Source: Rugalucina vietnamica
Taxonomy: Eukaryota > Mollusca > Bivalvia > Lucinida > Lucinidae
Length of the DNA: 64,000 nucleotides
Direction: 5' to 3'
Assembly (NCBI GenBank): GCA_964017185.1
Contig: OZ024874.1
Span: 56,399,356 to 56,463,355 of the forward strand
Position 1 is the stretch's first letter. Each line of letters begins with the position of its first letter. Shown piece after piece: positions 1,379 to 61,611 of this stretch. Position numbers and translations under genes: made by a program. The notes under the pieces were generated by a model that did not search any database, was not told where the DNA came from, and worked only from the letters and a program-made list of their open reading frames with translations.

Positions 1379-2320
1379 TCAATTATATAGAGAATTACGT
1401 CTTGCTATAAAGGATTGGGATATAAACTTTGCAACGTGTCTATATTCCTGTGTAATAAGACATTTAAATTTCTCATTTGAGTCCAGTAAGTGGAATTGTT
1501 GGCCTAAATGTCTAAAAAGGATCTGTCTTTGATTTGTATATGCATCACAACTTAGGATGAAATGTTTCTCATCCTCAATGTCACCACTGTCACAGAGCTG
1601 ACATACCCTTTCTTCAGGCTTAAGTCCGCTGAAGCGTCCGGTTTCTATCCTGAGTGGTAGAACCCCGCATCGCAACTGTGCTAAAAACGAACGTTCTTGT
1701 TTCGGTAAATATGCTTTCACATAGTCTTCAGTTTTGTATTGTGCTTTAAACGAAATATATGTCCTGAGTTTTGATACATCTTTAGTTTTATTTGACCAGT
1801 CTGAGCTATGATTTTGAAATAATTGTTTTTCACAATAAACTATATCACATAGTTCTTTATTTTGAAAGTTTTCCAGTAATGCTAATTTATTAAATATAGA
1901 TTTTATTTCTGAACACCAGGAATTATTCTTATTCCGATTAAAGTCATTCAGAAAGATCTTTTTAGTAAGTCTATCATCGTCCATGCTTACTAAATGGTTC
2001 CACAGTCTAAGCATATTTAGCCACCTCCTGTGTAGAGAGACTGGCCAATCCATATCTCCGTTGATAGATAGGATAGGGGTGAAGCGATGGACCCCTAGGA
2101 AATAACGTATCGCGCGATTTTGTACCATATCACCCTTAATAAAGTCTCTAAATCCCCATACGCCGGAGCAATAATCTGTCACTGGCACTACGCACGAATA
2201 ATAAAGTTTAGTATAGGTTTCGAACCCTACATCTTTGAAGTTATGAATCTTTGATATCATCGACCCGAGTGCTCTGCCACCCGAGTTGAATAATGTATCT
2301 ACAGTAATGTTAAAATCCAT
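1379..2320 (-). pseudogene. LINE1 reverse transcriptase C-terminal part
   Basis: This 313-codon stretch continues the LINE1 protein in a shifted frame (MDFNITVDTLFNSGGRAL follows directly on KYLGVVLSDK of the upstream part). It contains the thumb and connection region found in LINEs (YYSCVVPVTDYCSGVWG). Near the end lies a C2HC knuckle, CQLC followed by HFILSC, a common C-terminal feature of invertebrate LINE polyproteins. Stop codon at 1379-1381, leaving about 230 bp of 3' untranslated sequence before the tail repeat. Confidence 0.8.
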
Positions 2321-2322
2321 GT

Positions 2323-13332: not shown

Positions 13333-13334
13333 TA
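11762..13334 (-). pseudogene. LINE2 reverse transcriptase (N-terminus lost)
   Basis: An open frame of about 520 LINE codons. It begins at STTDCIFILQ (just upstream of palm motif A) and shows FIDFEKAFDKID, GVKQGDPSSPMLFMMFINDI and the catalytic FLLLYADDQVIFA. A C-terminal CQFC...HFLLVC knuckle follows. The frame runs about 23 codons further upstream to 13402, but those codons lie in the flanking repeat and are not LINE sequence. There is no endonuclease or ORF1, so it is 5'-truncated and non-autonomous. The uninterrupted frame suggests a fairly young insertion. It resembles LINE1 in motif style but is clearly a different family. Confidence 0.85.
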
Positions 13335-13400
13335 AATAACACGGCATTGTGTTTCAAGACATGACAGAAGAAGATAATGTCACACAGGTATACCTGTACC
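13333..13400 (+). repeat. Complex repeat unit 2, right of the LINE2 insertion
   Basis: ACACGGCATTGTGTTTCAAG and GTCACACAGGTATAC match 10849-10905, completing unit 2 after the LINE2 insertion. Confidence 0.7.
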
Positions 13401-13701
13401 ATCCTGTATAATGTTTGTTTGCCAATAAAAGTGCTCAGCGGCTATTAGAATGATTAACATGTCTTATCTCACCTTGTTAATATCAGGCACACTTCATAAT
13501 TGGTTTCAATAGACAAATTAATCGGTTTGGTTATGATTACAGAATGTTTGGTTTCTTTTTACCTGAGATACACATATTGTATAGAATGCTCAAAGGATGT
13601 TATATGCTATTTACTTGTTATAAATTATTTTACATTTTCCTAAAACAGAAAATAATAAGTTTAATTAAAAACTTTATTTTATCTTCAACTATTATGTTTT
13701 G

Positions 13702-33897: not shown

Positions 33898-34075
33898 AAG
33901 TTGAAGAGGCTTTTAAAAGTAGCCGAAACCGCGGTATCGCCCGTTCCTTTTCGTCTTATTATGCTCACTGCTCTTAAAGGATTTCAGTTTTGTTTTATTC
34001 GCTATAACTGCAGTTGGTGTTGTATCGTGTGGCGGCCCTTAAAAGTCTCCCGTACATCATTCATAGTGCAGATAA
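33898..34075 (+). repeat. Repeat R, left part (split by LINE3)
   Basis: AGCCGAAACCGCGGTAT, TGCTCACTGCTCTTAAAGGA, GTGTGGCGGCCCT and TAGTGCAGATAATATTTTCC match 63040-63206 in order. At the 63-kb locus the sequence continues directly into the part found here at 37771-38070. Confidence 0.7.
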
Positions 34076-35462
34076 TATTTTCCCTTCTTTCTTTATATAC
34101 TGTCATACGCCTTCGCAGGCATTCTGGACAGGTGTGCGCTGTCATTGCTGAAATAAAAGATGAGTAAATGAGATAAAGTGCAAGATAAGATAGTGAGGTG
34201 AGCAAAGATGAGAGGTTAAAAGTAGGTGAGAAGAGGGTTAAAATAAAATTAAAAGCACCAGAGTGGTGCAGCTTACCAACTGCTTCCTTGAACGCATCAA
34301 GGGTTGGCAAGCACACCACCCACTCTGGGGGATCATTCCACTGGACAATTGCCAGGGGATAAAAGGAGTATTTGTAATAGTCTGCTGAGGTGTGGACTTG
34401 GCGGAAGGCCATTGAGTGGCAATATCTGGACACGCGGATATTGGGCTGGATGTATTCAGGCATGGGTATTGCCACAAGTCCATAGACATCACGGTAGAAG
34501 ACACAGAGGCGTGCATCTGCTAGTTTCTGTTGGAGGGATCGCCAGCCAAGTTTTTCCAGCATCGCTGTAACACTTGACCTAGTGATAAAATCACTTGTGG
34601 TCCAGCGAGCCGCTCTCTTTTGGATCTTTTCTATCTGGAGTATTTTCTTTTTGGAGGAGGGGTCCCATATGGGGGAGGCATACTCCAGTTTGGGCCGTAC
34701 TAGGGTGTTGTAGGCAGTCTCTTTCACCTTGGGTAGTTTAGTACGAATGTTTCTTCTTATAAAACCGAGAGTACAATTTGCGTTTCCAGTGATCCTGTCT
34801 ATGTGAGAATTCCAGGACAAGACACTGGAGATTTCCACCCCCAAGTACCTAGCACTGGTGACAACCTCCAGGACTTGTTCATGCAGGTGATACATATAAT
34901 TAATTGGGTTTCTGGAGGTTGTCACCCTTACCACCTGGCACTTTGAGGGATTAAACTCCATGTCCCACCTGGACTCCCACACAGCCAGTGTGTCAAGGTT
35001 ATTTTGGAGTACTCGGCCACTATCCTCGCCGTCCATAGTGAGATAGACAGCAGTGTCGTCTGCAAAAAGTCCCACCTTGGATACCAACCGCTCTGGCAAA
35101 TCATTAATATAGGTAAGAAACAGGATAGGGCCCAGGACAGAGCCCTGTGGGACTCCTGATGCCACTGGGACCGACCCTGATTCTTCACCCTCGAGAATTA
35201 CAGACTGCGGTCTATTTCCCAGGAAGGTGCGAATCCAGCCAAGTGCTTTGCCTCTGATCCCGTGCTGATAGAGCTTCCAAATAAGCTTTGAATGATTGAC
35301 TTTATCAAATGCCTTTGAAAAGTCCAGCAGCACTAGATCAGTCTGTTTACCTGCACTTGCATTCCGGGCCAGGTCCTCAATAAGCATAATGAGCTGGGTC
35401 TCACATGTCCGGTTTTCTTTAAAACCACGTTGAAGCTCGTACAGTAAGTCATGTGAGTTCAT
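34002..35462 (-). pseudogene. LINE3 reverse transcriptase, main part
   Basis: A 486-codon open stretch beginning at NSHDLLYELQRGFKENRTCE. Palm motifs: LVLLDFSKAFDKVNH, SGVPQGSVLGPILFLTYIND, and the catalytic LFADDTAVYL (FADD, normal for CR1/jockey-type LINEs), followed by thumb sequence ARYLGVEISSVLSWNSHID. The last 25 or so codons (after 34076) run into the flanking repeat R, so the native C-terminus lies upstream of the frame's stop. It is separated from the N-terminal RT part by a stop near 35473 and a frameshift. Non-functional as it stands. Confidence 0.85.
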
Positions 35463-35502
35463 AAGTTTAACCAGCTAGGAAGCGATAATATGTTCAAGGA
35501 CC

Positions 35503-35865
35503 CTACACAGAATGCATGTGAGGGAGATCGGTCTGTAGTTTGCAGCCGATGACTTGTCCCCCCCCCCCCACGAAAACTGGCGCCACGAAGGTTCGGTACC
35601 AACCTGCAGGAAGCCTACCCGAATGAAGATACTGCTCAAATATTATTTGTAATATAGGAGCTATCTCCACCCGTAATTCCCGCAGTAAAAGGGGTTTTAT
35701 TTTGTCTGGACCAGCCGCTTTTCCAGGTTTGAGATTTGACAGAAGCTTCAGGACACCCTCCACTGACACACTGAACTCTTCCATGGCTGGGTTAGGGCTC
35801 AGAGTGTCAGCAGATAGGCTATCCAGTTCTATTTTACCTTCATCAGCCAAGTCCTGAAGCTTCAT
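35503..35865 (-). pseudogene. LINE3 reverse transcriptase, N-terminal part
   Basis: The finger region of the RT: SVEGVLKLLSNLKPGKAAGPDKIKP, then LQIIFEQYLHSGRLPAGW, a conserved block just ahead of the palm in CR1-like LINEs. The frame is lost at a C-run (35561-35571 on the + strand, read as G's on the coding strand), after which the text VGGGG is out of register. Confidence 0.8.
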
Positions 35866-35866
35866 T

Positions 35867-36115
35867 TTACAGATAATAAATAATCATCTTACAGAGTCTG
35901 AACAATGAAAGTGGTTCTTTGTTTGTGAATACAGACTGAAATTGTTTGTTATGCAGGTCAGCTTTTTGGGTGGTGTCTGATACGAGGTCGTCATTGTGTA
36001 TAAATGGAGGGGAGCCACACTGGTCTTGTCGGGAGTTTTTAAGGAATGAGAATAGCTTCTTGCTATTGCACTGTGAAGCTTCCTCATTTAAGCCAAGGAG
36101 ACCTTCAATGTACAT
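35867..36115 (-). pseudogene. LINE3 linker between endonuclease and RT
   Basis: Reads YIEGLLGLNEEASQ, then KKLFSFLKNSRQDQCGSPPF and KADLHNKQFQSVFTNKEP. This is the usual spacer of CR1/jockey-like polyproteins (KKFWSFIK...KA..LN.QF.SVFT). It is separated from the preceding endonuclease part by about 290 bp of unrelated sequence. Confidence 0.75.
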
Positions 36116-36410
36116 CAGATGAGATTATTTAATTTTGCCCAGGAGAAGTGGTTTTCGGCGTTGTGCCTGGTAAAAACGTTAAGTTGTGTCCCAGATAGAG
36201 TGATTTGTTTTTATCATACTTGTCCCCTGTTGGAACGATAATCGGTGTCCCAGGAAAAGTGGTTTATCTTCATTATACTACTGTTTATTGTGCATACCTC
36301 TCTGTGGTACTCGTTCCCTTTCGTTCCTGTTGAAACCTAGCCGGATGGCTACCTTGTAAGGAAAGAGCTAGTCATTCTGCTCTTCGAGTGTGTTGTCGGA
36401 AAATGTTTTG
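36116..36410. other. Insertion inside LINE3
   Basis: About 290 bp that breaks the LINE3 linker. It contains two related blocks, GAGAAGTGGTTTTCGGCG and GAAAAGTGGTTTATCTTC, with TCCCAG(A/G)-type words, but no clear inverted ends or duplication were found. Origin unknown. Confidence 0.45.
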
Positions 36411-37584
36411 TTGTGTTTTATGTATTTTCGTTCCCACCCGCTGTCTATGTTGGGACTTTAAATTTAATTGCATCGATTCCTGGTCCCTCTATTCTTACTT
36501 TTCCTATGTGCTCTGCTATGAATCTGTCTTTAAAATCAGCCATTAAAGACTTCAGTTTGGGCCAGTCCGCTTTTCAGAATAGCTGGACTCTTCTGGGTTT
36601 CTGTTTATGAACAGAGGGTTTTAGAGAACTTTGGGCAGTGACCAAATCATGGTCTCCAAGGCCAGCATGACACCCTATGTGGTTAACTAGTGTGGGATTT
36701 GTGCAAAGAAACAGGTCTAGAATGTTGTTTTGGCGAGTGGGTTCTGTAACCATCTGAACAAAGTTAAAGTCCTCTATCAGGTCTAGGAAATTTTCATACA
36801 CAGTGTTTAGAGAAAAATCTGGTTTAAGCAGTGGCTGGTTGTCCGGCCATGTGAGATTTGGAAAGTTAAAATCCCCAAGAAGACAGATGTTGCCTTTTGC
36901 ATGCTTCTGTACATCTTCAAGAGATCTTGTCAGTTCTAAAATACTGGTCAGGTCCTCCTCATTGGGTCTATAGAATGCCCCAATAAACAGAGGATGAGTG
37001 CCCTTAACCTCAAGCTTTACCCATATCAACTCACAGTCAGTCTGAAATTGTGGCTGTTCAGAGCAAATATAGTCATTGCGAACTAAGACAAAGACTCCGC
37101 CACCTCTGCCAGTCTTTCTGCGATATGGTGTATAGCCCAAGGGAAATATTTCACTACTTGAAATCTCAGGGGATAACCAGGATTCTGTACCAACTACCAC
37201 ATCAGGCTTCTCGGTTTCGATAATGCAGTGAAAGTCAGGATTTTTATTTACTATTGACTGGAAGTTTATGTTCATAATCTTCAATGTAGAAACTGGTTTT
37301 GAATTTGACTTAGGTTTCATTGGAGTAGAAGTTAGGGGTGAGAGAGACTGCTCTAGGACACTGTATTTACTGGATGTACTCAATATAGCACTATCAGTAA
37401 ACACGGATGAATTAAAGTTGGGAAGGCCACACTGAAGGCAGGTCCACGAGTAACTTTCATGCACAGCCAAAACATCATGAATTCCGAGGTTCATTCCTTG
37501 ACACTGAATGTGATACCATGTGTCACATGAATCACACTGGATGCTGTTCTGGTTTTGTCGAACAGCTTTAGAACAAGTACCACA
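36411..37584 (-). pseudogene. LINE3 PHD finger and APE-type endonuclease
   Basis: The coding stretch starts with a Cys4-His-Cys3 PHD finger: PCGTCSKAV (37587 down), QCDSCDTWYHIQCQG and WTCLQCG. An endonuclease follows: NINFQSIVNK, TESWLS, GGVFVLVRND, the GDFNFPNLTW motif and a GLGDHDLVTA end (catalytic DH). PHD fingers next to the endonuclease are known in some CR1/L2-like LINEs and are thought to bind chromatin or nucleic acid. A frameshift near 36574 moves the last part (FRKADWPKLKSLMADFKDRF) into another frame. Confidence 0.8.
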
Positions 37585-47947: not shown

Positions 47948-48391
47948 TACGGAAGCGTATATGTGCACCTAGTTGTTGCTTAAGTTGGTATCATCTCGAC
48001 TTTGCGTTTGTCGATTTGTTTAGTTGATCTACCAAATCTCGACAAATTAATGTCTAGATGTCGAGTTAAAATGACACAAATCGATATACTTTCATTCTGA
48101 TAGGATTTAAAGTTACAATAATCATCTCGATAATCGAATTGATTATGTTAATCGTCTAGAATTATCTTGTAAAACATAATCATAGTGTTATCTTTAATCT
48201 AAATAATGCAACTTCTAGAGATGATTATGTCGAAATAACACATTGTAACGAAACAGTTTGAAATGAATTTCGCACCGATCAGAGTTATATTGCAATATAC
48301 TTCTCGACTTATCCAACTCATTTTGTTAGTCGATATAAGTTAAGTTGTATAATAACATAATAAAACCAGAAGGGCGCCAGTAGATACCTGT
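47948..48391 (+). repeat. Element C left terminal inverted repeat
   Basis: Reverse complement of 61178-61611, by eye about 90% identical with a few short indels. It also contains its own TCGA-centred inverted words (CTCGAC...GTCGAG). Confidence 0.85.
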
Positions 48392-48700
48392 AGCATACAA
48401 CAACTGAAAGTGAGGTATCGGACTGGCAGGTACTTGTAGACTACCAGAACTGACAATAGGGTATCGGTATATACCTGTAGCCTACTACAGTTGACAGTAG
48501 GGTACCTGTAGTTTCCTGTAGCCTACAACAAATGAAAGTAGGATATCGGTCAATACCTTTAGCCTATCACAACTGATAGTAGGGTACCAACAGGTACCTC
48601 TAGCCTATCACAATAATTATTGATAGAAATATTGGTAGGTACTTGTAGCCTACCACAGCTGACAGTACGATACCGGTAGGTACATGCTGATACCCCGACA
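48384..48700 (+). repeat. Element C minisatellite, forward array
   Basis: Seven or so degenerate units of about 42 bp, consensus-like (A/G)(T/A)ACCTGTAGCCTACCACAAC then TGA(C/T)AGTAGGGTA(T/C)C. The array starts at the inner edge of the terminal inverted repeat. Confidence 0.8.
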
Positions 48701-48702
48701 TT

Positions 48703-48833
48703 GACTTGCTCTACTTGCAACCGACAGTTTAGAGCCAGAATTGGCCTAGTCAGCCATCAAAGAAGTCACCAACACACACGAACCTATTCAAGAAATAATG
48801 ATGATCTTTCTCATTAGTGAGAGACGAACGACC
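48703..48833 (+). mobile_element. LINE4-type 3' end fragment, plus orientation
   Basis: TTGACTTGCTCTACTTGCAA through GAGAGACGAAC is the 3' end of the same LINE family as 55933-60120 but on the opposite strand. It encodes the end of the C2H2 finger (CSTCNRQFRARIGLVSHQ). Only the last ~130 bp are present, flanked by minisatellite on both sides. Confidence 0.75.
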
Positions 48834-49031
48834 AGGGGTAGGTATATGTAGCCTACCACAACTGATAGTAGGATACCAATAGGTACATGTAGCCTACCAC
48901 AACTGAAGCATACCGGCCGGTAACACTAGCCTTTCTATCAGTTGTGAGGTTAGAGGTACCTGTTGGTACCCTACCATCAGTTGTGGTAGGCTAAAGGTAC
49001 TGAGCGGTATCCTACTTTCAGTTGCAGTAGG
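48834..49031. repeat. Element C minisatellite with orientation switch
   Basis: Two forward units, then CCGGCCGG (48912-48919), then about two inverted units (CCTACCATCAGTTGTGGTAGG type) up to the 5' LTR. The switch marks the axis of the palindrome. Confidence 0.7.
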
Positions 49032-49435
49032 TGTTATGTATGACAGTTACTTATTGAAAGATGTGCATTCAGTACTGGTAAACTTCCCAAGGGAGTATGC
49101 CCAGGAAAGTATGATGTTATACATATGATGTTTACTTGTTGTCCTTAGCAATTATTTACTTTTAGTGTCCCAGATATTGGACATAAACAGGTTGTTTACT
49201 TCAGAATTTTCTAGAAATTTCAAATTGTTCTTTGACAGAAAAATCTGGAAGAACCAAAGATGTAGAATCTTCTAGAAAAATCTTTTTTTTATGTCAAAAG
49301 AATATTGTGGAATTTTCTGGAGGGATAATGGCCTCTCTAGAATATTCTAAAACATTAAATTTTGGTAAACAACTTGTTATTTTTAGTATATGATATCATA
49401 GAATTTGCTGGAAGAATCCTGTATGTTCCTCAGTG

Positions 49436-49445
49436 CTATATAAGG
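49436..49445 (+). promoter_or_regulatory. LTR TATA box
   Basis: CTATATAAGG, 405 bp into the LTR, is a strong TATA-box match placed well upstream of the AATAAA signal, as expected for the U3/R boundary. The 3' LTR has the same word at 55513-55522. Confidence 0.6.
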
Positions 49446-49759
49446 GCTACAAATTTTCATAAGGACAATCTTTGGGTACTGTTACTATTAAGAAGTCAAA
49501 ATCTATCTTACTGGAATTTAAACTTATTCTTGGATTACTTTGTGATATTCGATTCTGGATTGGGACATAGTGCTATTTTGAAACAAACTTTAATTCTTGG
49601 GATCAGAAACTGATACAGACTTGTGTTAAAAAATTCTGAGGGACATTCAGACATTCTTAAGGGAATTAACATCTTGAAAGGTATTGTACATTCATTTTTG
49701 TTTGATTGTATATATGCTTTTGATTGTTTCACCTGTAATTACTGGTTAAATCACTTCTA

Positions 49760-49765
49760 AATAAA
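49760..49765 (+). terminator. LTR polyadenylation signal
   Basis: AATAAA about 85 bp before the LTR end; the functional copy would be the one in the 3' LTR at 55837-55842. Confidence 0.55.
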
Positions 49766-49853
49766 TTTGTTAAATTTTAAACAAAGCTTGTTGCTGGCTA
49801 ACCAACTTGTTGGTTTCCTTAATCTTCTAGTTACGCCTGGCACGTAACAGAAT

Positions 49854-49873
49854 TGGGGGCTCGAGTCCGGGAT
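49854..49873 (+). promoter_or_regulatory. Primer-binding site, tRNA-Pro-like
   Basis: TGGGGGCTCGAGTCCGGGAT begins 4 bases after the 5' LTR. It equals the known proline-tRNA type site TGGGGGCTCG-TCCGGGAT with two extra bases (AG) in the middle. The first ten bases complement the 3' CCA end of tRNA-Pro perfectly. Confidence 0.65.
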
Positions 49874-49962
49874 TGAAATTTCTTGTGCACCAAATTTATT
49901 TAAAATTCTAAAGTATCTTCACTGTTTGCTGTTTAAATAGCTAAAGCCAGCAAAAAGCAACC

Positions 49963-52900
49963 ATGTCATTCAAACTAAGTGACTTTATTGCTGCGCCTTC
50001 TCAGGAGCTGTTAGATAAGGCCAAAAAGAGTGACCTCTTAGACATAGCTGATCATTATAATAATGGGTTGTCAAATATCAAGACTTCCATGTTAAAACAT
50101 GAAATTAAGAACATTTTGATTCAGTTTTTTGTTGACGAGGAAATTTTTGATTCCTCGGCTACTTCTCAGATTCTAGTCACTCAGACTGACTTGCAGTTGA
50201 GGGAACTAGAAATCAAAAGACAAATTGAGATGGAAAAACTAAAATTTGAGTATGAAGAAAGAATAAGGTTGGCAACTTTAGAACGGGATGAAAGAATAAG
50301 GGCAGAAAAGGCCGAAAGGGAAGAAAGAATAAGATTGGAAACTTTAGAACGGGAAGAAAGAATGCATAAACAAAAGTTAGAAATGGAAGAACGAGAGAAG
50401 GAAAAACAAAGAGAATTAGAACGAGAAAAAATTGAGTTAGAAAAAGAAAAATTAGAAAGAGAAGAAAGGCTTGAAAAAGAAAAATTAGAACGAGAAGAAC
50501 GGCTCGAAATTGAAAAAGAAAAATTGAGATTTGAAAATGAAGAAAAAGAAAGAGAAAGGCAATTTCAGTTACGAATGAAGGAAATTGAACTTAATGACAA
50601 ATCAAAATCAAAATCTTTGCCTTTGGCTACTAGTACAGTATTTGATGTCACAAAACACATTCGTCTCGTTCCTCCATTTCAAGAAAAAGAGGTTGATAAA
50701 TATTTTCTACATTTTGAGAAGGTAGCAGAAAACTTGAAATGGCCAAAAGGGCATTGGACCTTGCTTTTGCAAAGTGTTGTAATTTGTAAAGCTCGAGAAA
50801 TTTACACTCAGCTTTCTCTTGAGCAAAGCTCAGATTATGATACAGTAAAGGAATTTATTCTTAAGGCTTATGAGCTGGTCCCTGAGGCATACAGGCAGAA
50901 ATTTAGAGACTGTAGAAAAGAACATGACCAGACTCATGTTGAGTTTGCTAGAACAAAAGAGCAACTATTTGATAGATGGTGTTCTTCAAACAAAGTAGGT
51001 TCTGATCATGCAAAGCTAAGGCAGCTCATGCTTGTTGAGGAATTCAAACGGTGCATAAATTCTGATGTTAAGGCTTTCTTGAACGAAAGAGAAGTTGAAA
51101 ACTTGGAAACAGCAGCACGTTTAGCTGATGACTATGCTTTGACTCATAAGGCTTCATTTGTCAACAAGCCATATCCTAGGAAACCATATAATCCTCAATC
51201 AAAGCAAATTACCCCTCAGTCAAAACCATATTCCCCTCAGTCCGGTCCCAAAGCCAATCCCAGTAATCCAACTGACAATTCCAGTCCAAAACCCAAATTT
51301 TCTAGTGAAAACAAAGGACAAAATCCCTTATCCCAGCCAATTTGTAATTATTGTAAGAAAACTGGCCACATTATTTCTGAATGTTTGGCACTGAAACGAA
51401 AGAAAGAAAGAGAAAATCTAGATAGTGCTAAACCGACAGGTCTCACCTCCTTAAAGGATAAACCACAGTCTTGTATCCAGGAAGAAAACCCAATACTGAC
51501 CAGAACTTGTAAAGAGTCAGTCTCTGAGGATTCTATTATGGAGATTTATGAACCATTCTTATCAGATGGTTTTGTGTCACTTAACAGTGACTCTGCCCAG
51601 TCTACCCCTATCAAAATCTTACGAGATACCGGAGCTTCTCAATCCCTTATCTTGGCAGATACCTTGCCATTTTCCGAGAAGTCTTCTTCTGGGACAAGTG
51701 TCCTTATCCAGGGCGTAGAGTGTGGATTTGTTAATGTACCGCTCCATAATATCTATTTGTCCTCAGACTTAGTTAAAGGTCCCGTGGCTGTAGGTATTAG
51801 ACCTTCCTTACCCTTTAAAGGTATTCATTTGCTGTTAGGCAATGATTTGGCAGGAGATAAGGTTGTGGTAAACCCACTTTTGACCAGCACACCATGTGTT
51901 GATCAACCGCCTGATCCCATTGAGCAGGAAATTCCTGACCTTTACCCTTCTTGTGCTGTTACTAGGGCAATGGCTAAGAAAGCCAAATTATATGATGGGA
52001 TGCAGGACATAAATTTAACTGACACTTTGATAGGTCAGTCCTTTAATAAAGAGTTTTCAACATCTCTTTCCCCTAGTCAGTCTGATATTCAGACTGACCC
52101 TAGCAATCCAAGGTCAGGGTCAGAAAATGACCTTTCACCTTCCAACTCAAATGACCAAGGTCATGACCAGCTGTCAAGGTCACAGCTTTGTAAAGAACAA
52201 CACAGTGATCCTGAGATCTCGCCTTTATTTGAAAGGGCTTTTAATGAAAATGAAATATCCCAGGTTCCTGTTTGCTATTATGTCAAAAATGGCATTTTGA
52301 TGAGAAAATGGCGTCCTCCGGATGTCTCCGCAGCAGATGAGTGGACTGTTAACCACCAAATTGTGGTTCCTAGGGTTTATCGCCCTGAAATCTTAAACTT
52401 GGCTCATGAAACACCCATGTCAGGCCATTTAGGTGTAAATAAGACCTATCACAAGATTCTAAATCATTTCTACTGGCCAGGATTAAAATCTGATGTTTCA
52501 CAGCATTGCAAATCCTGCCACACTTGTCAAATGGTAGGAAAGCCCAATCAGACCATTCCAAAAGCTCAATTGCAGCCCATTCCTGCCTTTGATGAACCTT
52601 TCAGCAGAGTGATTATTGATTGTGTAGGTCCCTTACCCAAAACAAAGAAAGGTTGTGAATATCTTCTGACCATAATGTGTGCTTCAACTCGCTTTCCTGA
52701 AGCTATCCCACTCAGAAATATCAAGGCTAAAACAATAGTTAATGCACTTGTGAAGTTCTTCACATTTGTAGGCCTCCCAAAATCTATCCAGTCAGACCAG
52801 GGCTCAAATTTTATGTCAGGAATTTTTCAGCAAGTCATGTACGAACTTGGAATTAAGCAATACAAGTCATCGGCTTACCACCCTGAAAGCCAAGGTGCCT

Positions 52901-54963
52901 TAGAAAGATTCCATCAAACTTTGAAAAACATGATCAGATCTTACTGCTTTGACACTGAAAAAGATTGGGATGAAGGCATACACTTGCTTCTATTTGCTGT
53001 AAGAGAATCTGTACAAGAGTCTCTGGGGTTCAGCCCATTTGAGCTTGTTTTTGGGCACACTGTACGTGGACCGTTAAAACTTCTAAAAGAGAAATTTCTC
53101 TCAGATGATGACAGTTCTTTGAACTTACTTCAGTATGTGTCTGATTTCAAAAACAGACTATCAAAGGCCTGTGCTGCTCGGTCCAATCTCAAATCTACTC
53201 AAAGCAAAATGAAGATTCGTTATGATGAAAATGCTAAAGACAGAAATTTTGAACCTGGAGACAAGGTACTTGCTCTCTTGCCCATTCCTGGCAGACCTTT
53301 ACAAGCTAGATATTATGGCCCGTATACTGTTGACAAAAAGTTAAGTGACGTGAATTACATTGTTAACACTCCTGGGAGGCGCAAGCAAAAACAGCTATGT
53401 CACATTAATATGCTCAAGAAGTATATTGATAGGGATAGTTCTGTTATTTCATCAGTAAATATAGTTAATTCTGTCCCTCATGAACAAAATCAAATGGACT
53501 CTGAGGACTTCAACTTGGAGAAATCTGATCCCTCGTCATCGAAACTCCAGAATTCTGACATACTACAAAATCTTGATCAGAAACTGTCTCACCTTGATTC
53601 AGACAAAAGACTTGAACTGAAACAGTTAGTTCTCGAATATGAGCACTTATTTCCGGACATTCCATCCAGAACTGACAAAATCTATCATGGTGTTGACATT
53701 ATTGAAGGTTCAAAACCTGTAAAGCAACATCCTTACAGAATGAACCCTGTAAAACAGCAATATCTCAGGGAAGAAGTTCAATATTTGCTGGACAATGATT
53801 TCATTGAACCCAGCCAAAGTGAATGGAGTTCTCCTTGTATTCTTGTACTAAAGCCAGACGGGACATTTAGAATGTGCACAGACTATCGAAAAGTCAATTC
53901 TGTCACTAAAACAGACACTTTTCCCATCCCACGAATGGATGACTGCATTGATAATATTGGACATGCCAAGTATGTTACAAAGTTCGATCTGCTAAAGGGA
54001 TTTTGGCAGATACCCCTCACGGACAGAGCAAAGGAGATCTCGGCATTTGTTACACCAGATGGACTGTACCAGTATAAAGTCATGCCATTTGGAATGAAGA
54101 ACTCGCCTGCGACTTTTCAGCGGCTGGTCAACAGTTTGATTTCCAATCTGGATGGCTGTAAAGCCTATATCGACGACGCTATTATCTTCAGTGAGGAGTG
54201 GCAACAACACTTGCAGACAATCAGAACATTCTTTGACCGGCTAAGTGATGCTAAACTAACTGTGAACTTGGCAAAAAGTGAATTTTGCCATGCAAACTTG
54301 ACATTTCTTGGACACATTGTAGGTCAATGTCAGGTAAAACCTGTAGAAGCTAAAGTTGAGGCTATCTCAGATTTTCCTGTACCTACTAGCAAAAGACAAC
54401 TGATGCGCTTTCTGGGTATGGCTGGATATTACAGGAAATTCTGCAACAACTTCTCGGCTATAGCTGAGCCTCTGACAAACTTGCTTGGTAAGAAGGCCAA
54501 GTATGTTTGGACAGATGACTACCAGAAGTCATTTGATAAGCTCAAGGCCATACTTAGAAGTGCTCCGGTTCTCTTAGCACCAAGTTTTGACAAAGAGTTT
54601 GACAAAGTTGGCTGTAATGTTGGTGCAGGCAGTGTATTGTTGCAAGAAGATGACAATGGTGTTGACCATCCTGTTTGTTATTTTTCCAAAAAGTTTAACA
54701 AGCATCAGAGAAATTACTCTACCATAGAGAAAGAATGCCTATCTCTAATCCTTGCGCTTCAGCACTTTGAAGTTTACTTAGCTTCTTCAAATGCACCAAT
54801 TGTTGTCTTCAGTGACCACAATCCACTGACTTTCATACATAAAATGAAAAACAAGAAACAGCGTTTACTCAGGTGGAGTCTCATGTTGCAAGAGCACAAT
54901 CTTGACATCAGACATATCCGAGGAAGAGATAATATCATTCCAGACACCCTAAGCAGAGCTTAA
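49963..54963 (+). CDS. Gag-Pol polyprotein of Gmr1-like retrotransposon (1666 aa)
   Basis: One uninterrupted frame encodes everything for a cytoplasmic particle and its enzymes. In order: a Leu/Lys-rich helical N-terminus (1-65); a long charged coiled coil (about 70-215); a SCAN-like capsid region (about 227-400, with EAYRQKFRDCRK and FARTKEQLFDRWC); a CCHC knuckle CNYCKKTGHIISEC (461-474); protease LRDTGAS (active D555); integrase HHCC finger (H815, CKSCHTC), catalytic D886, D945 and E981 (D-35-E) and YYGPY (1117-1121); then reverse transcriptase from about 1250, with YIDD at 1402-1405; and RNase H (about 1535-1666) with E1591, D1618, D1661. Oddities: the integrase lies before the RT, there is no gag/pol frameshift, and V1549 stands where the first RNase H aspartate is expected. 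The start ATG at 49963 is in context AACCATGTC. Confidence 0.95.
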   Translation: MSFKLSDFIAAPSQELLDKAKKSDLLDIADHYNNGLSNIKTSMLKHEIKNILIQFFVDEEIFDSSATSQILVTQTDLQLRELEIKRQIEMEKLKFEYEERIRLATLERDERIRAEKAEREERIRLETLEREERMHKQKLEMEEREKEKQRELEREKIELEKEKLEREERLEKEKLEREERLEIEKEKLRFENEEKERERQFQLRMKEIELNDKSKSKSLPLATSTVFDVTKHIRLVPPFQEKEVDKYFLHFEKVAENLKWPKGHWTLLLQSVVICKAREIYTQLSLEQSSDYDTVKEFILKAYELVPEAYRQKFRDCRKEHDQTHVEFARTKEQLFDRWCSSNKVGSDHAKLRQLMLVEEFKRCINSDVKAFLNEREVENLETAARLADDYALTHKASFVNKPYPRKPYNPQSKQITPQSKPYSPQSGPKANPSNPTDNSSPKPKFSSENKGQNPLSQPICNYCKKTGHIISECLALKRKKERENLDSAKPTGLTSLKDKPQSCIQEENPILTRTCKESVSEDSIMEIYEPFLSDGFVSLNSDSAQSTPIKILRDTGASQSLILADTLPFSEKSSSGTSVLIQGVECGFVNVPLHNIYLSSDLVKGPVAVGIRPSLPFKGIHLLLGNDLAGDKVVVNPLLTSTPCVDQPPDPIEQEIPDLYPSCAVTRAMAKKAKLYDGMQDINLTDTLIGQSFNKEFSTSLSPSQSDIQTDPSNPRSGSENDLSPSNSNDQGHDQLSRSQLCKEQHSDPEISPLFERAFNENEISQVPVCYYVKNGILMRKWRPPDVSAADEWTVNHQIVVPRVYRPEILNLAHETPMSGHLGVNKTYHKILNHFYWPGLKSDVSQHCKSCHTCQMVGKPNQTIPKAQLQPIPAFDEPFSRVIIDCVGPLPKTKKGCEYLLTIMCASTRFPEAIPLRNIKAKTIVNALVKFFTFVGLPKSIQSDQGSNFMSGIFQQVMYELGIKQYKSSAYHPESQGALERFHQTLKNMIRSYCFDTEKDWDEGIHLLLFAVRESVQESLGFSPFELVFGHTVRGPLKLLKEKFLSDDDSSLNLLQYVSDFKNRLSKACAARSNLKSTQSKMKIRYDENAKDRNFEPGDKVLALLPIPGRPLQARYYGPYTVDKKLSDVNYIVNTPGRRKQKQLCHINMLKKYIDRDSSVISSVNIVNSVPHEQNQMDSEDFNLEKSDPSSSKLQNSDILQNLDQKLSHLDSDKRLELKQLVLEYEHLFPDIPSRTDKIYHGVDIIEGSKPVKQHPYRMNPVKQQYLREEVQYLLDNDFIEPSQSEWSSPCILVLKPDGTFRMCTDYRKVNSVTKTDTFPIPRMDDCIDNIGHAKYVTKFDLLKGFWQIPLTDRAKEISAFVTPDGLYQYKVMPFGMKNSPATFQRLVNSLISNLDGCKAYIDDAIIFSEEWQQHLQTIRTFFDRLSDAKLTVNLAKSEFCHANLTFLGHIVGQCQVKPVEAKVEAISDFPVPTSKRQLMRFLGMAGYYRKFCNNFSAIAEPLTNLLGKKAKYVWTDDYQKSFDKLKAILRSAPVLLAPSFDKEFDKVGCNVGAGSVLLQEDDNGVDHPVCYFSKKFNKHQRNYSTIEKECLSLILALQHFEVYLASSNAPIVVFSDHNPLTFIHKMKNKKQRLLRWSLMLQEHNLDIRHIRGRDNIIPDTLSRA

Positions 54964-55098
54964 GTGCCTCTACAATGCTGATGTCCAGCTTTGTGCTGTT
55001 GTATTTGATTAGTTTTGCACAAATTTTGCTAAACATATTGTATACAATTATCCAGTATTGCAAAAGAAAGCTTTATTTTATAAAACTTTCTTTTCTTT

Positions 55099-55110
55099 GA
55101 AGAGGGGAAG
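55099..55110 (+). promoter_or_regulatory. Polypurine tract
   Basis: GAAGAGGGGAAG lies directly against the 3' LTR, the usual plus-strand primer position. Confidence 0.85.
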
Positions 55111-55926
55111 TGTTATGTATGACAGTTACTTGTTGAAAGATGTGCATTCAGTACTGGTAAACTTCCCAAGGGAGTATGCCCAGGAAAGTATGATGTTATA
55201 CATATGATGTTTACTTGTTGTCCTTAGCAATTATTTACTTTTAGTGTCCCAGATATTGGACATAAACAGGTTGTTTACTTCAGAATTTTCTAGAAATTTC
55301 AAATTGTTCTTTGACAGAAAAATCTGGAAGAACCAAAGATGTAGAATCTTCTAGAAAAATCTTTTTTTATGTCAAAAGAATATTGTGGAATTTTCTGGAG
55401 GGATAATGGCCTCTCTAGAATATTCTAAAACATTAAAGTTTGGTAAACAACTTGTTATTTTAGTATATGATATCATAGAATTTGCTGGAAGAATCCTGTA
55501 TGTTCCTCAGTGCTATATAAGGGCTACAAATTTTCATAAGGACAATCTTTGGGTACTGTTACTATTAAGAAGTCAAAATCTATCTTACTGGAATTTAAAC
55601 TTATTCTTGGATTACTTTGTGATATTCGATTCTGGATTGGGACATAGTGCTATTTTGAAACAAACTTTAATTCTTGGGATCAGAAACTGATACAGACTTG
55701 TGTTAAAAAATTCTGAGGGACATTCAGACATTCTTAAGGGAATTAACATCTTGAAAGGTATTGTACATTCATTTTTGTTTGATTGTATATATGCTTTTGA
55801 TTGTTTCACCTGTAATTACTGGTTAAATCACTTCTAAATAAATTTGTTAAATTTTAAACAAAGCTTGTTGCTGGCTAACCAACTTGTTGGTTTCCTTAAT
55901 CTTCTAGTTACGCCTGGCACGTAACA
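55111..55926 (+). repeat. 3' LTR
   Basis: 816 bp, same TG...CA ends. Compared with the 5' LTR it has TTGTTGAAAG for TTATTGAAAG and ATTAAAGTTTG for ATTAAATTTTG, and is one T shorter in each of two T-runs. Confidence 0.93.
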
Positions 55927-55963
55927 GTGATAGTTCGTCTCTCACTAATGAGAAAGACCATCA

Positions 55964-58900
55964 TTATTTCTTGAATAGTGCTGATGTGTGTTGGTGAGTT
56001 CTTTGATGGCTGACTAGGCCAATTCTGGCTCTAAACTGTCGGTTGCAAGTAGAGCAAGTCAATGTCATAGAGTCTGATGGTGGCACATTTGTTTTGGCTT
56101 TGCGCTCTCTTCGCTTTCTTTCAGCTTCACAGATTCTCTTCTTTTCATAAAGAGCTGCTCCTTTGTTGATGAGACCTCGCCACTTTGATCGCTCCTGTGC
56201 AGTCTGTTCCCAGGACCCCATTGGTATTTCGAAATCCTTCAGAGAGGCTTTGAGGGTGTCTTTGTAGCGTTTCTTCTGGCCACCTTGAGAGCGCTTTCCC
56301 TCCTGTAGTTCTCCATAGAAAACTTTCTTTGGAAGTCGCGCATCAGGCATTCTTATAACATGGCCAGTCCATCTTAGCTGTGCTAGCTTTAAGACTGTAT
56401 GCATGCTTTGCATCCCTGCTTTCGTCAGGACCTCTGTGTCTGGAATCTTGTCCTGCCACTTGATTTTTAACAACTTTCTCAAACAGCTTAAGTGGAAATG
56501 GTTAAGTCTTTTTGCATGGCGTTGGTATACTGTCCAGGTCTCACATGCATACAAGAGGATTGGCAGTACCACAGCCTTGTAGACTTTCAGCTTGGTGTCA
56601 AGCTTGATTCCATTTCGCTCCCAGACATTTGCACGGAGTCGTCCGAATGCCACACTAGCCTTTGCAATTCTGGCAGTGATCTCATCATCAATATGCACTG
56701 CTCTGGAGAGAGTGCTTCCCAGGTAGGTGAACTTGTCAACAACTTTCAGTTTTTGCCCATTCACAGTGATGGTTGGTTCATTATATGGCTTTCCGGGCGC
56801 TGGTTGGTGTACAACCTCTGTCTTTTTTGTGCTGATTGTGAGATCATAGTTATCACATGACTGTGAGACTTGATCCATGGCTCTTTGCATTTTTGCCTCT
56901 GTGCTGGCATTCTTATCCATATCATCTGCATAGAGGAGCTCATCTAGCACATCAGTCTGGACCTTAGTTTTGGCTTGCAACCTTCTGAGGTTGAATATGT
57001 TGCCATCAAAACGGTACCTGATTGGAAAACCAGTGTCACTGTCCTGAAAAGCATCCATAAGCATGGCAGAAAACATCATGCTGAACAGTGTTGGTGCCAG
57101 AACACAGCCTTGTTTGACCCCATTTGTTACTTCAAATGGTTCAGAGAACTCTCCATCATTTTGCACACGTGCCTGCATGCCATCATGAAACTGCCGCACC
57201 ATTGCTATGAATCTGGGTGGACAGCCAAACTTGGCCATGATTTTCCAGAGTCCATCACGACTAACAGTGTCAAAAGCTTTGGTGAGGTCAACAAACGTCA
57301 TGTATAGATCTACATTCTGTTCTTGGCATTTCTCCTGAAGCTGTCTTGCTGTGAAGATCATGTCTATTGTCCCTCTGTCTTTTCTGAATCCACATTGACT
57401 TTCTGGGATAAGTCCCGTCTGATCAAGATGAACATTCAGACGATTCAACAGAATTTTTGCAAGTATCTTCCCAGCAATTGATAGGAGGGAGATGCCTCTG
57501 TGATTGTCACAGACTTGAGGATTTCCTTTCCGCTTGTATAGGTGGATTATGGATGCATCCTTAAATTCTTGTGGGATAGCCTCCTTTCTCCACATACAGT
57601 GAAACAACTCTGTCAGTTTCTCTGCCATGGGTAGCCCCCCAGCCTTGTAAACTTCGGCAGGAATTGCATCTGCACCTGGGGCTTTGCCAGATGATAGTTG
57701 TTGAACTGCTTTTCTTGTTTCCGTAACGGTAGGAAATTCATCTAACAGAACATTGCACTCTATCTGTGGAAGTCTGTCGATTGCATCCTCATTGATGCTT
57801 GATGGTCGATTAAGCACACTATTGAAGTGTTCTGCCCACCTTTCCAAGATAGCTTCTTTATCTGTGAGAAGAGTGTTACCATCTGCACTTAGCAATGTGG
57901 TGGCTCCAGAACTCTTTGGACCATAAATGGTTTTCAGTGCATCATGAAATTTCTTCATGTCCTTTCTATCCGCAAAAGACTGAATTTCTTCTGTTTTCTT
58001 CCTCAGCCAGAAATCTTGCATGTCCCTAAGCTTGGTCTGGACTGTCTTACAAATGTTGCTGTAGGCTGCTTTCTTTGATACTGAGCTAGTATCATCTTGA
58101 TGTGCCTTGTGCAATCGGTGCTTTTCTTCAAGAAGCCTCTGAATTTCGTCATCATTCTCATCAAACCAGTCTTGATGTTTGCGAGATGGATGGCCTAAGG
58201 TGCTTGCAGCTGAAGAAAGAACTGTTTTATGGAAAACTGTCCAGTTTTCTTCGGGGTCCTCTGAACTGAGATTCATTGCATCCAGTTGGTTGCAAATGTC
58301 TGTTAAGAAATCTTGTCTCATGCTGTCTTTATTCAGCTTTGAGACATCCAGTCTCTTAGGAGCTTTCTTGCCTTGAGGTCGCCTCGCAGGCTGTATTCTT
58401 AGGTTGAGTTTGCTGACAACCAGTCTATGATCTGTCCAGCAGTCTGCACCACACATAGTCTTTGTCACTTTAACATCCTGCCTGTCTGTTCTCCGCACTA
58501 TGACATAGTCTATGAGATGCCAGTGTTTGGAACGGGGATGCATCCAGGATGTTTTGTTCCTATTAGGTAGACGGAAGACTGTGTTGGTGATTAGAAGGTC
58601 ATGTTCAGCACACTTCCTGAGAAGCAAGAGACCATTGCTGTTGCACTTTCCAACCCCTTCTGGACCTATAACTCCTTCCCAGGTCTGGTGGTCTGTACCC
58701 ACTCTGGCATTAAAGTCGCCAAGAAGGATAAGCTTGTCTGTGCGGGGTGTTGCAGAAATAACATTGTCTAGGTCATCATAGAACTTGTCCTTGACCTCAT
58801 CTGGATTGGTCATTGTGGGTGCATAAGCACTGACAATAGTTGCATGTTTATTGCCTGACAGAGGAAGTCTCAATGTCATTAGACGGTCATTAATGCCTTT

Positions 58901-59155
58901 TGGCAATCCTGACAGCTTACCAACAAGTTCTGTTTTGATGGCAAAGCCAACTCCTGCTTCACGCCTCTCTTCACTTTTGCGTCCACTCCAGAAGAAGGTG
59001 TATCCAGCACCAACTTCTTTGATCTCCCCAACATCTGCGAACCGAGTCTCACTCAATGCAGCTATCTGTATATCATACCTCCCAAGTTCTCTGCCCACAA
59101 GGGCCGTTCTACGCTGTGGTCTATCTGACCCAGCATTGTCCATTAAAGTACGCAC
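55964..59155 (-). CDS. LINE4 endonuclease-reverse transcriptase polyprotein with C-terminal C2H2 finger
   Basis: Domains in order: APE-type endonuclease from the N-terminus (AALSETRFAD, LLGDFNARVGTD, and WTDHRLVVSK holding the catalytic Asp-His); linker; reverse transcriptase (SGKAPGADAIPAEVY, FVDLTKAFDTVSRDG, NGVKQGCVLAPTLFS, catalytic LLYADDMDK); a thumb region (YLGSTLSRAVHIDDEI); and a final C2H2 zinc finger CSTCNRQF...LVSHQRTH with C-x2-C-x12-H-x3-H spacing. All catalytic motifs look intact. The first codon used here is GTG. The frame is open upstream to a stop near 59240 (reading ...VIPLRIGAWNVRTL) without an ATG, and the first in-frame ATG is at 59143. The true start is therefore uncertain. 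The protein nicks target DNA and copies its own RNA there. The style resembles RTE- or I-group elements, but the clade is not assigned. Confidence 0.9.
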   Translation of the reverse strand: MRTLMDNAGSDRPQRRTALVGRELGRYDIQIAALSETRFADVGEIKEVGAGYTFFWSGRKSEERREAGVGFAIKTELVGKLSGLPKGINDRLMTLRLPLSGNKHATIVSAYAPTMTNPDEVKDKFYDDLDNVISATPRTDKLILLGDFNARVGTDHQTWEGVIGPEGVGKCNSNGLLLLRKCAEHDLLITNTVFRLPNRNKTSWMHPRSKHWHLIDYVIVRRTDRQDVKVTKTMCGADCWTDHRLVVSKLNLRIQPARRPQGKKAPKRLDVSKLNKDSMRQDFLTDICNQLDAMNLSSEDPEENWTVFHKTVLSSAASTLGHPSRKHQDWFDENDDEIQRLLEEKHRLHKAHQDDTSSVSKKAAYSNICKTVQTKLRDMQDFWLRKKTEEIQSFADRKDMKKFHDALKTIYGPKSSGATTLLSADGNTLLTDKEAILERWAEHFNSVLNRPSSINEDAIDRLPQIECNVLLDEFPTVTETRKAVQQLSSGKAPGADAIPAEVYKAGGLPMAEKLTELFHCMWRKEAIPQEFKDASIIHLYKRKGNPQVCDNHRGISLLSIAGKILAKILLNRLNVHLDQTGLIPESQCGFRKDRGTIDMIFTARQLQEKCQEQNVDLYMTFVDLTKAFDTVSRDGLWKIMAKFGCPPRFIAMVRQFHDGMQARVQNDGEFSEPFEVTNGVKQGCVLAPTLFSMMFSAMLMDAFQDSDTGFPIRYRFDGNIFNLRRLQAKTKVQTDVLDELLYADDMDKNASTEAKMQRAMDQVSQSCDNYDLTISTKKTEVVHQPAPGKPYNEPTITVNGQKLKVVDKFTYLGSTLSRAVHIDDEITARIAKASVAFGRLRANVWERNGIKLDTKLKVYKAVVLPILLYACETWTVYQRHAKRLNHFHLSCLRKLLKIKWQDKIPDTEVLTKAGMQSMHTVLKLAQLRWTGHVIRMPDARLPKKVFYGELQEGKRSQGGQKKRYKDTLKASLKDFEIPMGSWEQTAQERSKWRGLINKGAALYEKKRICEAERKRRERKAKTNVPPSDSMTLTCSTCNRQFRARIGLVSHQRTHQHTSALFKK

Positions 59156-59872
59156 ATTCCATGCGCCAATCCGTAAGGGGATTACTCTAGCTTTTTTCTT
59201 TGTATTTCGACCGCTTAAGGGGATCCCCGCTGATCGCGGTTAACCAGCCAGGGGGTTTGAAGCAGGCAATTGTTTAGGGCACCTTTTCTAGCCCCTTCCC
59301 CATGCTACGGGGGTGAGCAGTGCGGTCCTAAATAGGTCTGCTCAGTCGCTCAGCCGACTGCCGAATTCTGCTTACTGCTTCTCCTCACAGAAAACGACCA
59401 TTAGAACTGAGCCGCCTGTGTGCAGGTCTGCAACTACAGCTCCCAGTGTGTCCTACACCTGCTGCTTCGCCACTCGCCCATCGCCACAGGACTTTGTAGG
59501 TATGTGGGTGCAAGTGTGATGAAATTGTTGTGTATGCAAGTGCTTGTGTGTTGAGAAATAAGATGACATGCGCTATGAAATTAGATTATAGTGAGGAAGA
59601 GGTGCGCAACGTCAACCTCACTCTCTAGTCCTCGCCCAGCTGCGCCCAGAGGCAAGACACAGGTCAAGACGTCTGGAGTTGGGTTTAGATGCAGTGGATG
59701 ACCGTAACATCTTTAGTGCCTTGTCACGCTCTGCATGTTCCACAACATGTTGCTGTATCGCTTTCTGAACCGTTGAATCAGGTGATTTCTTCCGCTCCAT
59801 CTACCGAAACAGTCTTTGCATATCTGGACTAGGCATATCCAGACACACAGGTTTGATTTTTGAGTTTCCTTC
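59156..59872 (-). other. LINE4 5' leader with small open frame
   Basis: Sequence between the 5' repeats and the main frame. It contains a 60-codon frame (59618-59800, starting MERKKSPDSTVQKAIQQHVV) that begins with ATG and is highly charged. It could be an ORF1 remnant, an upstream ORF or chance. Confidence 0.4.
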
Positions 59873-60072
59873 TCCTAGATGAATTGCTGGCCACAGCTGA
59901 AGAGCTCCATCTACCCTTTCTTAGGTTTTGTTTAGAGACCTGTAAACTCCTAGGAGGACTGTCAACCAAGACTAATGAGTTCCCCCTGCCCAGCTAGATT
60001 TTTGTGTAGAGAACTAGCTTAACTCCTAGATGAGTTGCCTTCCAAGGCTAACGAGCCCCATCTGCACCGCAT
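59873..60072 (-). repeat. LINE4 5' leader monomers, ~76 bp
   Basis: Three direct units beginning CTCCTAG(A/G)(T/G)GA (59873, 59949, 60026 approximately), each followed by GAG(C/T)(T/C)CC(A/C)-type text and TTTAGAGA/GTAGAGAAC. Tandem 5' monomers act as promoters in some LINEs. Confidence 0.65.
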
Positions 60073-60124
60073 GACAACAGGTAGTACTGATTACATGTTA
60101 CAGTAGCAGTTAAACTGACCTGAC

Positions 60125-60255
60125 CTGACGTAACAGTAGGCTACAGGAAACTACAGGTGCCCTACTGACAACTGTGGTAGGCTACAGGTACCTGCCGGTC
60201 AGTTGTTGTAAGTGAGATGTACCAACCGGTACCATACTGTCAGTTTTGAATGCTA
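60125..60255 (-). repeat. Element C minisatellite, inverted array
   Basis: CAGTAGGCTACAGGAAACTAC, CTACTGACAACTGTGGTAGG and ACCGGTACCATACTGTCAG: units of the 48384-48700 array in opposite orientation. Confidence 0.75.
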
Positions 60256-61177
60256 CACGGGTCAGCCAAGATCAGATGAAAATTTTTATTTTATCAAGTG
60301 TAATGCAGTTGTGTAAAAAATACTTCAACACTAACATACTTGCGTAAGTTAGTAAGTTGAATTGCAGGATGTCAGAATCAAGTATCTCTCCCTGGCCTAA
60401 AAATTTCATGTTGATTGGACAAGCCATTTTTCACAGTTTAAGTTTAAATAACCAAAAATACCCCGAAAACAGGTGTTATACTGTCTCGCTTGAACATTGC
60501 TTCTTTTTATGTTTAAGGGGATTAAAACTGACACTTTATGTACATAGTCTGTAGTTAGTAAACAATCATATCCCCTTTATTCTGCCGTTTATTTGAATGG
60601 GCTACGATTATTTGTTTTTGAGTTATGCAATGATTACTAAAACTGCTGACATGTGTCAAACTGGGATATTCTAAAGTGATGAAGGAGTGGCTGTCTGATA
60701 AGTCAGCCTGCTACATCCAATACTATTTTCAAGGGGTTATAAACAATATTTGGGCATACCTAAAATAACCAGTCGTTAGGATTACTATTATCACTGGATA
60801 GAAATTTATAACCCAACTAATGAAGACGATGTAACAAAAAAGTGTCCTGTCCGTAAGACATTCATTATTCTATGATGTCATATACTTCTGGAAGTTTAAA
60901 ATCACATGGGGGATGAAGTCTTCAGAACTGATAATTGTTATAAGAATAATATTATACCAGCACCAATGACAATGCAGAATTATAGAAATAATAATTCGGT
61001 CAAAAATGCCCTATCCGTAGAGAAAATATTTACAACAAAAAAGTAAAATTTCTGAAACCAATAAACCCAGAGCCATCAAATTTGCTTTTTAGCGGGACAA
61101 ACGTTTCATTAGAATATAGGATGGAATATATCAAAACTCAACATCAAAAATTTGCATCTGATCGTAGCTGAGACGTA
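60256..61177. other. Element C right-arm sequence, unassigned
   Basis: About 920 bp between minisatellite and right terminal repeat, with no counterpart in the left arm. Only a 65-codon unrecognised frame (60357-60554) is present. Confidence 0.5.
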
Positions 61178-61611
61178 CAGGTATCTACTGGTGCCCTTCT
61201 GGTTTCATTATGTTATAATACGACTTAACTAATATCGACTAATAAAATCAGTTAAATAAGTCGAGAAGTATATCGCCATATAACTCTGATCGGTGCGAAA
61301 TTTATTTCAAACTGTTTCGTTTAAATATGTTATTTCGACATAATCATCTCTAGAAGTTGCATTATTTAAATGAAGATAACACTACGATTATATTTCACAA
61401 GATAATTTGAGACGATTAACATGATCAATTCGATTATCCTAGAAGATTATTGCAACTTTAAATCCTATCAGAATGAAAGTATATCGATTTGTGTCATTTT
61501 AACTCGACATCTAGACAATAATTTGTCGAGATCAACTAAACAAATCGACAAACACAAAGTCGAGATGATGCCAACTAAAGCAACAACTAGGTGCACATAT
61601 ACGCTTCCGTA
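61178..61611 (-). repeat. Element C right terminal inverted repeat
   Basis: Mirror of 47948-48391, ending ATATACGCTTCCGTA just before the GTTTAG duplication. Confidence 0.85.

Follow-up and report, generated by a model that had tools for sequence, protein, structure and literature searches.

Gmr1 is described as the clade of Ty3/gypsy long terminal repeat (LTR) retrotransposons in which integrase is encoded upstream of the reverse transcriptase (RT) (PMC6238403). A crustacean Gmr1 was reported in 2013 as the first in protostomes (PMC3587641), and an annelid one, from Lamellibrachia, followed in 2021, backed by trees of RNase H, RT and integrase (PMC8220671). A polychaete study lists Gmr1 among the clades of several phyla, yet states that it was not found in its own analysis (PMC8556966). 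Frog Gmr elements are reported to contain a SCAN domain in over 50 % only (PMC4131045), and a Gmr1-like gag is named as the source of the vertebrate SCAN domain (PMC3424704). The DNA analysed here is a stretch of 64,000 nucleotides (the window), of which positions 49032–55926 constitute a complete LTR retrotransposon with LTRs, primer site, polypurine tract and target-site duplication all present. This element is assigned, with a probability of roughly 0.93, to the Gmr1 clade of Ty3/gypsy elements and to a heterodont, perhaps lucinid, bivalve.

The single open gag-pol frame encodes, in this order, gag (SCAN capsid), protease, integrase, RT and RNase H (Table 1). An earlier note made from the sequence had read the order from protease onwards in one frame, and Pfam matches and motifs agree with it: H2C2 zinc domain (aa 802–858), integrase core rve (879–974), integrase C-terminal module (1119–1153), RVT_1 (1296–1453) and RNase H (1516–1644), with no match of the copia RT family RVT_2 in the frame at E values up to 0.1. 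The motif positions named there also hold for D555 of the protease, the HHCC zinc motif (H/H/C/C from aa 815), the D886/D945/E981 triad (D945–E981 spacing 35 residues) and YIDD at aa 1402, except that the GPY glycine lies at aa 1119 and not at 1117. A structure model of the capsid region (50620–51222) is all-helical (predicted local distance difference test score, pLDDT, 82.7; predicted template modelling score, pTM, 0.51), and SCAN also scores above cut-off in the relatives P0085, P0101, P0113 and P0150.

Comparison with the solved polyprotein of yeast Ty3 revealed two blocks matching in swapped order, residues 1239–1666 with Ty3 583–1009 (RT-RNase H, i-Evalue 7.5e-86) and residues 791–1160 with Ty3 1079–1450 (integrase, 1.3e-34). 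Since both blocks match at such low E values, the integrase-first order is not due to chance; and as the Ty3 match ends at the boundary of RNase H and integrase, the gag-pol frame stops at the point where Ty3 continues from RNase H towards integrase. In all 110 relatives whose RNase H end could be read (164 proteins examined, 54 without a readable end), the protein terminates 0–7 residues past the LSR motif. Among the best 120 of 1946 matches, integrase lies ahead of RT in 104 out of 104 relatives showing both domains, an RT match being absent in 16 of the 120. As a control within the same genome, the 30 best-scoring copies of the family were set against the 30 best ordinary gypsy loci, for which an insect RT segment served as query. 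The GPY module precedes RT in 30 of 30 family copies and the integrase core does so in 28 of 30, whereas all 28 ordinary loci showing an integrase (30 fetched) have the order RT-RNase H-integrase, in keeping with the rule stated in the earlier note that ordinary gypsy elements carry integrase last. One genome with both pol orders of gypsy elements provides a clean natural comparison.

Bit scores place both domains with gypsy elements. Against six out of six ordinary gypsies of the same genome, the RT reaches 151–177 bits and the integrase 101–140 bits; against four copia loci of this genome, the RT has no match at E<1 (phmmer) and the integrase scores weakly (10–32 bits). Copia RTs are rare in the host genome (32 matches among 42 candidates). 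The RT-only and integrase-only trees proposed in the earlier note were built from 36 integrase-first rows and 14 rows of ordinary order, echinoderm relatives standing in for deuterostome members, and unite the integrase-first rows in one branch (support 100/99 for RT and 100/98 for integrase). The 160 rows with both segments long enough were thinned at an identity of 86 %, named rows being exempt, to 76 integrase-first rows (of 123 plus the window) and 14 ordinary ones (of 36). From the 76, 36 including 11 labelled ones entered the single-domain trees, and all 76 together with three ordinary rows entered a two-domain tree; L005, L010, L012, L013, L014, L049, L066 and L071 were left out because a segment was too short, and L076 was unused. 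Gypsy-type RT and integrase, one integrase-first branch in both trees, the permuted gypsy order and the SCAN capsid therefore point to a Gmr1-type gypsy element, as the earlier note had proposed.

The copia-like order could also stem from a chimera joining a gypsy RT to an integrase from copia or from another gypsy clade, and since the ordinary rows represent three broad groups (own-genome animal gypsies, Ty3 and chromovirus-like elements), an exchange between finer gypsy clades would be invisible in these trees. Adding two copia rows to the integrase tree left the integrase-first rows together at 97/92; in this copia-rooted tree, the ordinary rows were united weakly (79/13) and the integrase-first branch stood beside copia in the best tree, with long-branch warnings. 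This tree neither shows nor rules out nearness to copia, and the bit scores decide: a copia RT or integrase was rejected on them, the copia-rooted tree being weak on this point. With its gypsy zinc domain and GPY-type module, its scores favouring the own gypsies over the own copia loci, and a single integrase-first branch in RT and integrase trees alike, the integrase makes a chimera very improbable.

The copia-rooted tree nevertheless weighs against the assignment to Gmr1, as do the following points. The protease match to Pfam RVP (E=0.011, 16.5 bits) remains below the cut-off of 20.7, and comparing the capsid with solved structures by sequence alone brought up nothing useful. The target-site duplication comprises 5 bp in the window versus 4 bp elsewhere, and there is none in the copy on contig C11. 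The name Gmr1 is applied from defining features and printed descriptions (order, SCAN capsid, clade), and how the integrase-first order arose is something we infer.

The host was characterized by mitochondrial COX1, which groups with the heterodont bivalves Panopea, Ensis and Novaculina (100/98) and apart from the protobranch Acharax, in a tree of 32 rows with a long branch for the host and a bootstrap that had not settled. Among the 120 matches listed, the nearest has 86 % identity and named relatives have 64–68 %. The large mitochondrial contig of the assembly (C47; 30,680 bp) carries a fast-evolving COX1. Gmr1-type elements are found in records named Heimdallarchaeota, Campylobacter and Thiodiazotropha (L001; P0019, P0028, P0041), most likely as animal DNA in those assemblies. 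Candidatus Thiodiazotropha are symbionts of lucinid clams, and the relatives labelled with this name are probably host DNA in symbiont assemblies. The lucinid Indoaustriella scarlatoi is described with 17 chromosomes and 42.66 % LTR elements (PMC11830101). Our best guess for the host is a lucinid-like clam, because of the COX1 grouping, the spread of scored family copies over contigs C1–C17 as compared with 17 chromosomes, and the Thiodiazotropha-labelled relatives. Contamination, vertebrate or other, or an artefact of the assembly in place of a resident bivalve element might be suspected from the bacterial or archaeal names of several public relatives, and is rendered practically negligible by the copies on C1–C17, by the placement of the assembly's mitochondrial contig with heterodont bivalves despite its long branch, and by a target-site duplication and empty-site match that mark a real insertion into host repeats. 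Vertebrate contamination, named as a possible refutation in the earlier note, was rejected on the first two grounds. The bivalve host conjectured there is thus upheld, as is the presence of the clade in lophotrochozoans, but not as a new extension: the crustacean report of 2013 and the annelid report of 2021 precede it, and annelid and mollusc are only a small step apart.

In the host assembly (1.09 Gb), the copy count proposed in the earlier note gave 3246 first-look candidates, 150 of which were scored. All 150 have 97–100 % RT identity, 149 without internal stop. Frames of at least 1640 aa are present in 47, with lengths mostly of 1647–1651 and 1669–1673 aa; the 22-aa step between these classes would fit two units of the 11-aa gag repeat. 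Divergence among 30 copies including the window has a median of 1.44 % (0.44–16.0 %; 3638 columns), and LTR pairs differ by 1–3 substitutions per ~820 bp in six copies (the window and five others); the LTRs of the window differ by two substitutions and two single-base indels. Given this low divergence between copies and between LTR pairs, the family is mostly young, and it is abundant in the host. The first catalytic motif of RNase H is present in 24 of the 30 copies, unreadable by pattern in four and lacking in two, the window and one other. Because of this loss, the window copy is probably defective despite its open frame.

Six further copies were examined by their LTR ends; one, on contig C6, whose 5' LTR was not recovered in full, was dropped from the counts of target-site duplications, primer sites and LTRs. 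Two extra bases (AG) interrupt the primer-binding site of the window, putatively of tRNA-Pro type. Among the five other readable copies (loci L089, L091, L093, L095 and L097), four share this AG and that on contig C12 is without it. The family has multiplied despite this interruption. Duplications of 4 bp flank four of the five further readable copies, the fifth being that on C11. For the window, the flanks GTAGG/GTGAT suggested that a duplication was absent, a reading that was rejected: the direct flanks lack it because a later long interspersed nuclear element (LINE) inserted itself within the final bases of the 3' LTR and separated off the right copy. In the right copy of the LINE's own duplication, the LTR-end bases are followed by GTAGG as found ahead of the 5' LTR. 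Moreover, when the two flanks are joined, the junction is spanned by a match to another copy of the host repeat (90 % over 110 bases), corresponding to an empty site.

Table 1. Coordinates of the retrotransposon, its parts and the nested LINE in the window
Feature	Position	Strand	Remarks
Target-site duplication, left copy (GTAGG)	49027–49031		identical to 60136–60140
5' LTR	49032–49849	+	818 bp, TGTTA...TAACA
Primer-binding site	49854–49874	+	adjoins 5' LTR; putative tRNA-Pro type; 2-nt interruption
Single gag-pol frame	49963–54963	+	1666 aa, open
33-bp (11-aa) tandem repeat	50254–50385	+	charged N-terminal part of gag
Capsid C-terminal (SCAN) domain	50881–51150	+	Pfam SCAN E=9.7e-11, aa 307–396
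CCHC zinc knuckle (nucleocapsid)	51343–51384	+	C461 C464 H469 C474; alignment columns invariant or nearly so
Aspartic protease	51577–51942	+	DTGA at aa 555, LLGND at aa 624; motifs and weak profile match
Integrase	52366–53421	+	H2C2 zinc domain, D886/D945/E981 core, GPY module; between protease and RT
RT segment (search query)	53680–54342	+	YIDD at aa 1402
RNase H	54508–54894	+	first catalytic motif, which most relatives retain, lost in window copy
Polypurine tract AAGAGGGGAAG	55100–55110	+	identical ahead of 3' LTR in 6 further copies
3' LTR	55111–55926	+	816 bp
LINE target-site duplication, left copy ACGTAACAGT	55919–55928		10 bp; overlaps LTR end
Younger LINE	55929–60127	-	endonuclease-RT frame 55964–59155; inserted at extreme end of 3' LTR
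LINE target-site duplication, right copy	60128–60137		
Retrotransposon target-site duplication, right copy	60136–60140		split off by LINE

The N-terminal part of gag with its 11-aa repeat is probably a coiled coil, judged by eye. Behind pol, no retrovirus-type envelope gene was found in the 147 bp from the stop codon (54963) to the 3' LTR (55111). The nested LINE has an open endonuclease-RT frame of 1063 aa whose C-terminal part matches a C2H2 finger weakly, under the cut-off, and a ~134-bp piece of the same LINE family is located at 48697–48829. Both retrotransposon and LINE are nested inside a 13.7-kb unit (47949–61610), which starts with ACGGAAGCG, has terminal inverted repeats of ~445 bp (91 % alike) and internal sub-repeats, and is flanked on both sides by GTTTAGT (one extra A on the right). 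Additional LINE-like frames, seen by eye, lie on the minus strand at 1379–4287, 11762–13402 and 34002–37494.

Relationships inside the clade differ between the trees. In the RT tree, the window stands with two Candidatus Thiodiazotropha rows, Pinctada joining them (97/86), and Pecten and the echinoderms are placed elsewhere. The integrase tree combines the window with Holothuria, Lytechinus and one Apostichopus row in a set of 25 rows (86/84), Pinctada and Pecten remaining outside. In a quick tree of RT plus integrase (79 rows), a group of 36 rows contains Pinctada and Pecten along with the window and both Thiodiazotropha rows (support 83 in the Shimodaira–Hasegawa-like approximate likelihood ratio test, SH-aLRT), and the named echinoderms fall into three other groups. 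Among the 120 relatives listed, whole-protein identity to the window amounts to 57 % for Pinctada, 55 % for Pecten and 51–56 % for sea cucumbers. No close relatives were confirmed in viral_contigs, nor in genome_contigs with the integrase query; a later search gave 11 loci.

If the clam had recently acquired the element from another phylum by horizontal transfer and a burst had followed, this would agree with the youth of the copies, with the echinoderm company in the integrase tree and with the two named bivalves being no nearer to the window than sea cucumbers; moreover, a scallop RT query retrieved as its best 150 places in the genome a single family, all at 66–67 %, behind which a less similar family could be hidden. 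Since the integrase tree and the identities do not support a bivalve grouping, transfer was given more weight and a single ancient origin less. Transfer is nonetheless considered unlikely: the RT tree puts Pinctada, not echinoderms, with the group of the window, the two-domain tree keeps the bivalves and Thiodiazotropha rows together and apart from the echinoderms, no echinoderm protein among the relatives listed exceeds 56 % identity, and a young burst is possible without any transfer. Descent is our guess.

The integrase-first order may have had a single origin, in the ancestor of the clade, in which the whole integrase block from zinc domain to GPY would have left its place behind RNase H and come to lie between protease and RT; the simplest route would be a tandem duplication of pol and subsequent loss of the outer pieces. 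In pairwise comparisons (window aa 795–985 for integrase versus 1240–1465 for RT; pairs not independent), integrase is the more similar of the two domains in 2618 of 2850 pairs of integrase-first representatives, in 5 of 91 pairs of ordinary representatives and in 196 of 351 own-genome ordinary pairs. It is tentatively suggested, at somewhat less than even odds, that integrase-first order and SCAN capsid arose once before the split of protostomes and deuterostomes and have been kept since, the shift of integrase being accompanied by stronger conservation of integrase relative to RT. If so, the SCAN capsid, later the source of a vertebrate transcription-factor domain, would be an ancestral part of a bilaterian retrotransposon. 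The elements provide material for asking about the age of both the pol rearrangement and the SCAN-type capsid.

In the proposed life cycle, RNA would be copied from the 5' LTR and translated into a single polyprotein forming particles via the SCAN-type capsid. The protease would release integrase and RT-RNase H, whereupon their order in the precursor would become irrelevant; reverse transcription would be primed by a tRNA (Pro-type), and integrase would insert the copy with a duplication of 4–5 bp. The window copy later lost the RNase H catalytic motif and was hit by the LINE.

Concerning molluscs, a 2018 survey names Gmr1 once, in its background, and does not include it in its table of 21 gypsy clades. 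"Gmr1" does not occur in the main texts of a clam genome paper (PMC8905726), a bivalve transposon survey (PMC10294476) and the Troyka paper (PMC12440569). No report of Gmr1 from a mollusc was found in the open-access literature as represented by the titles and abstract beginnings listed and the papers named, where a mollusc host may be unreported; the protein database contains Pinctada and Pecten members of the clade. An integrase-first gypsy clade best known in fish, frogs and other deuterostomes is not marginal in molluscs, forming in this clam a very abundant and young family. Of general interest is above all that bivalve-linked and echinoderm elements have the exact permutation of pol in common.

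Among known systems, the Ty1/copia elements of the same genome share with the window element the position of integrase before RT, and differ in an RT without match in phmmer across the four loci, a weakly matching integrase and a rare RT. Ty3 is homologous lengthwise in RT-RNase H and integrase, its integrase coming last. Closest is the Gmr1 clade, its named members known here by description only (Atlantic cod Gmr1, LGF3 of Lamellibrachia, crustacean GyRex4 and kin), which has in common with the present element the gypsy-type RT and integrase, integrase upstream of RT (PMC6238403, PMC8220671, PMC3587641) and a SCAN domain in gag (PMC4131045, PMC3424704). The present element is set apart from these by its bivalve host, and perhaps also by one open gag-pol frame, the 11-aa gag repeat and a very high recent copy number.

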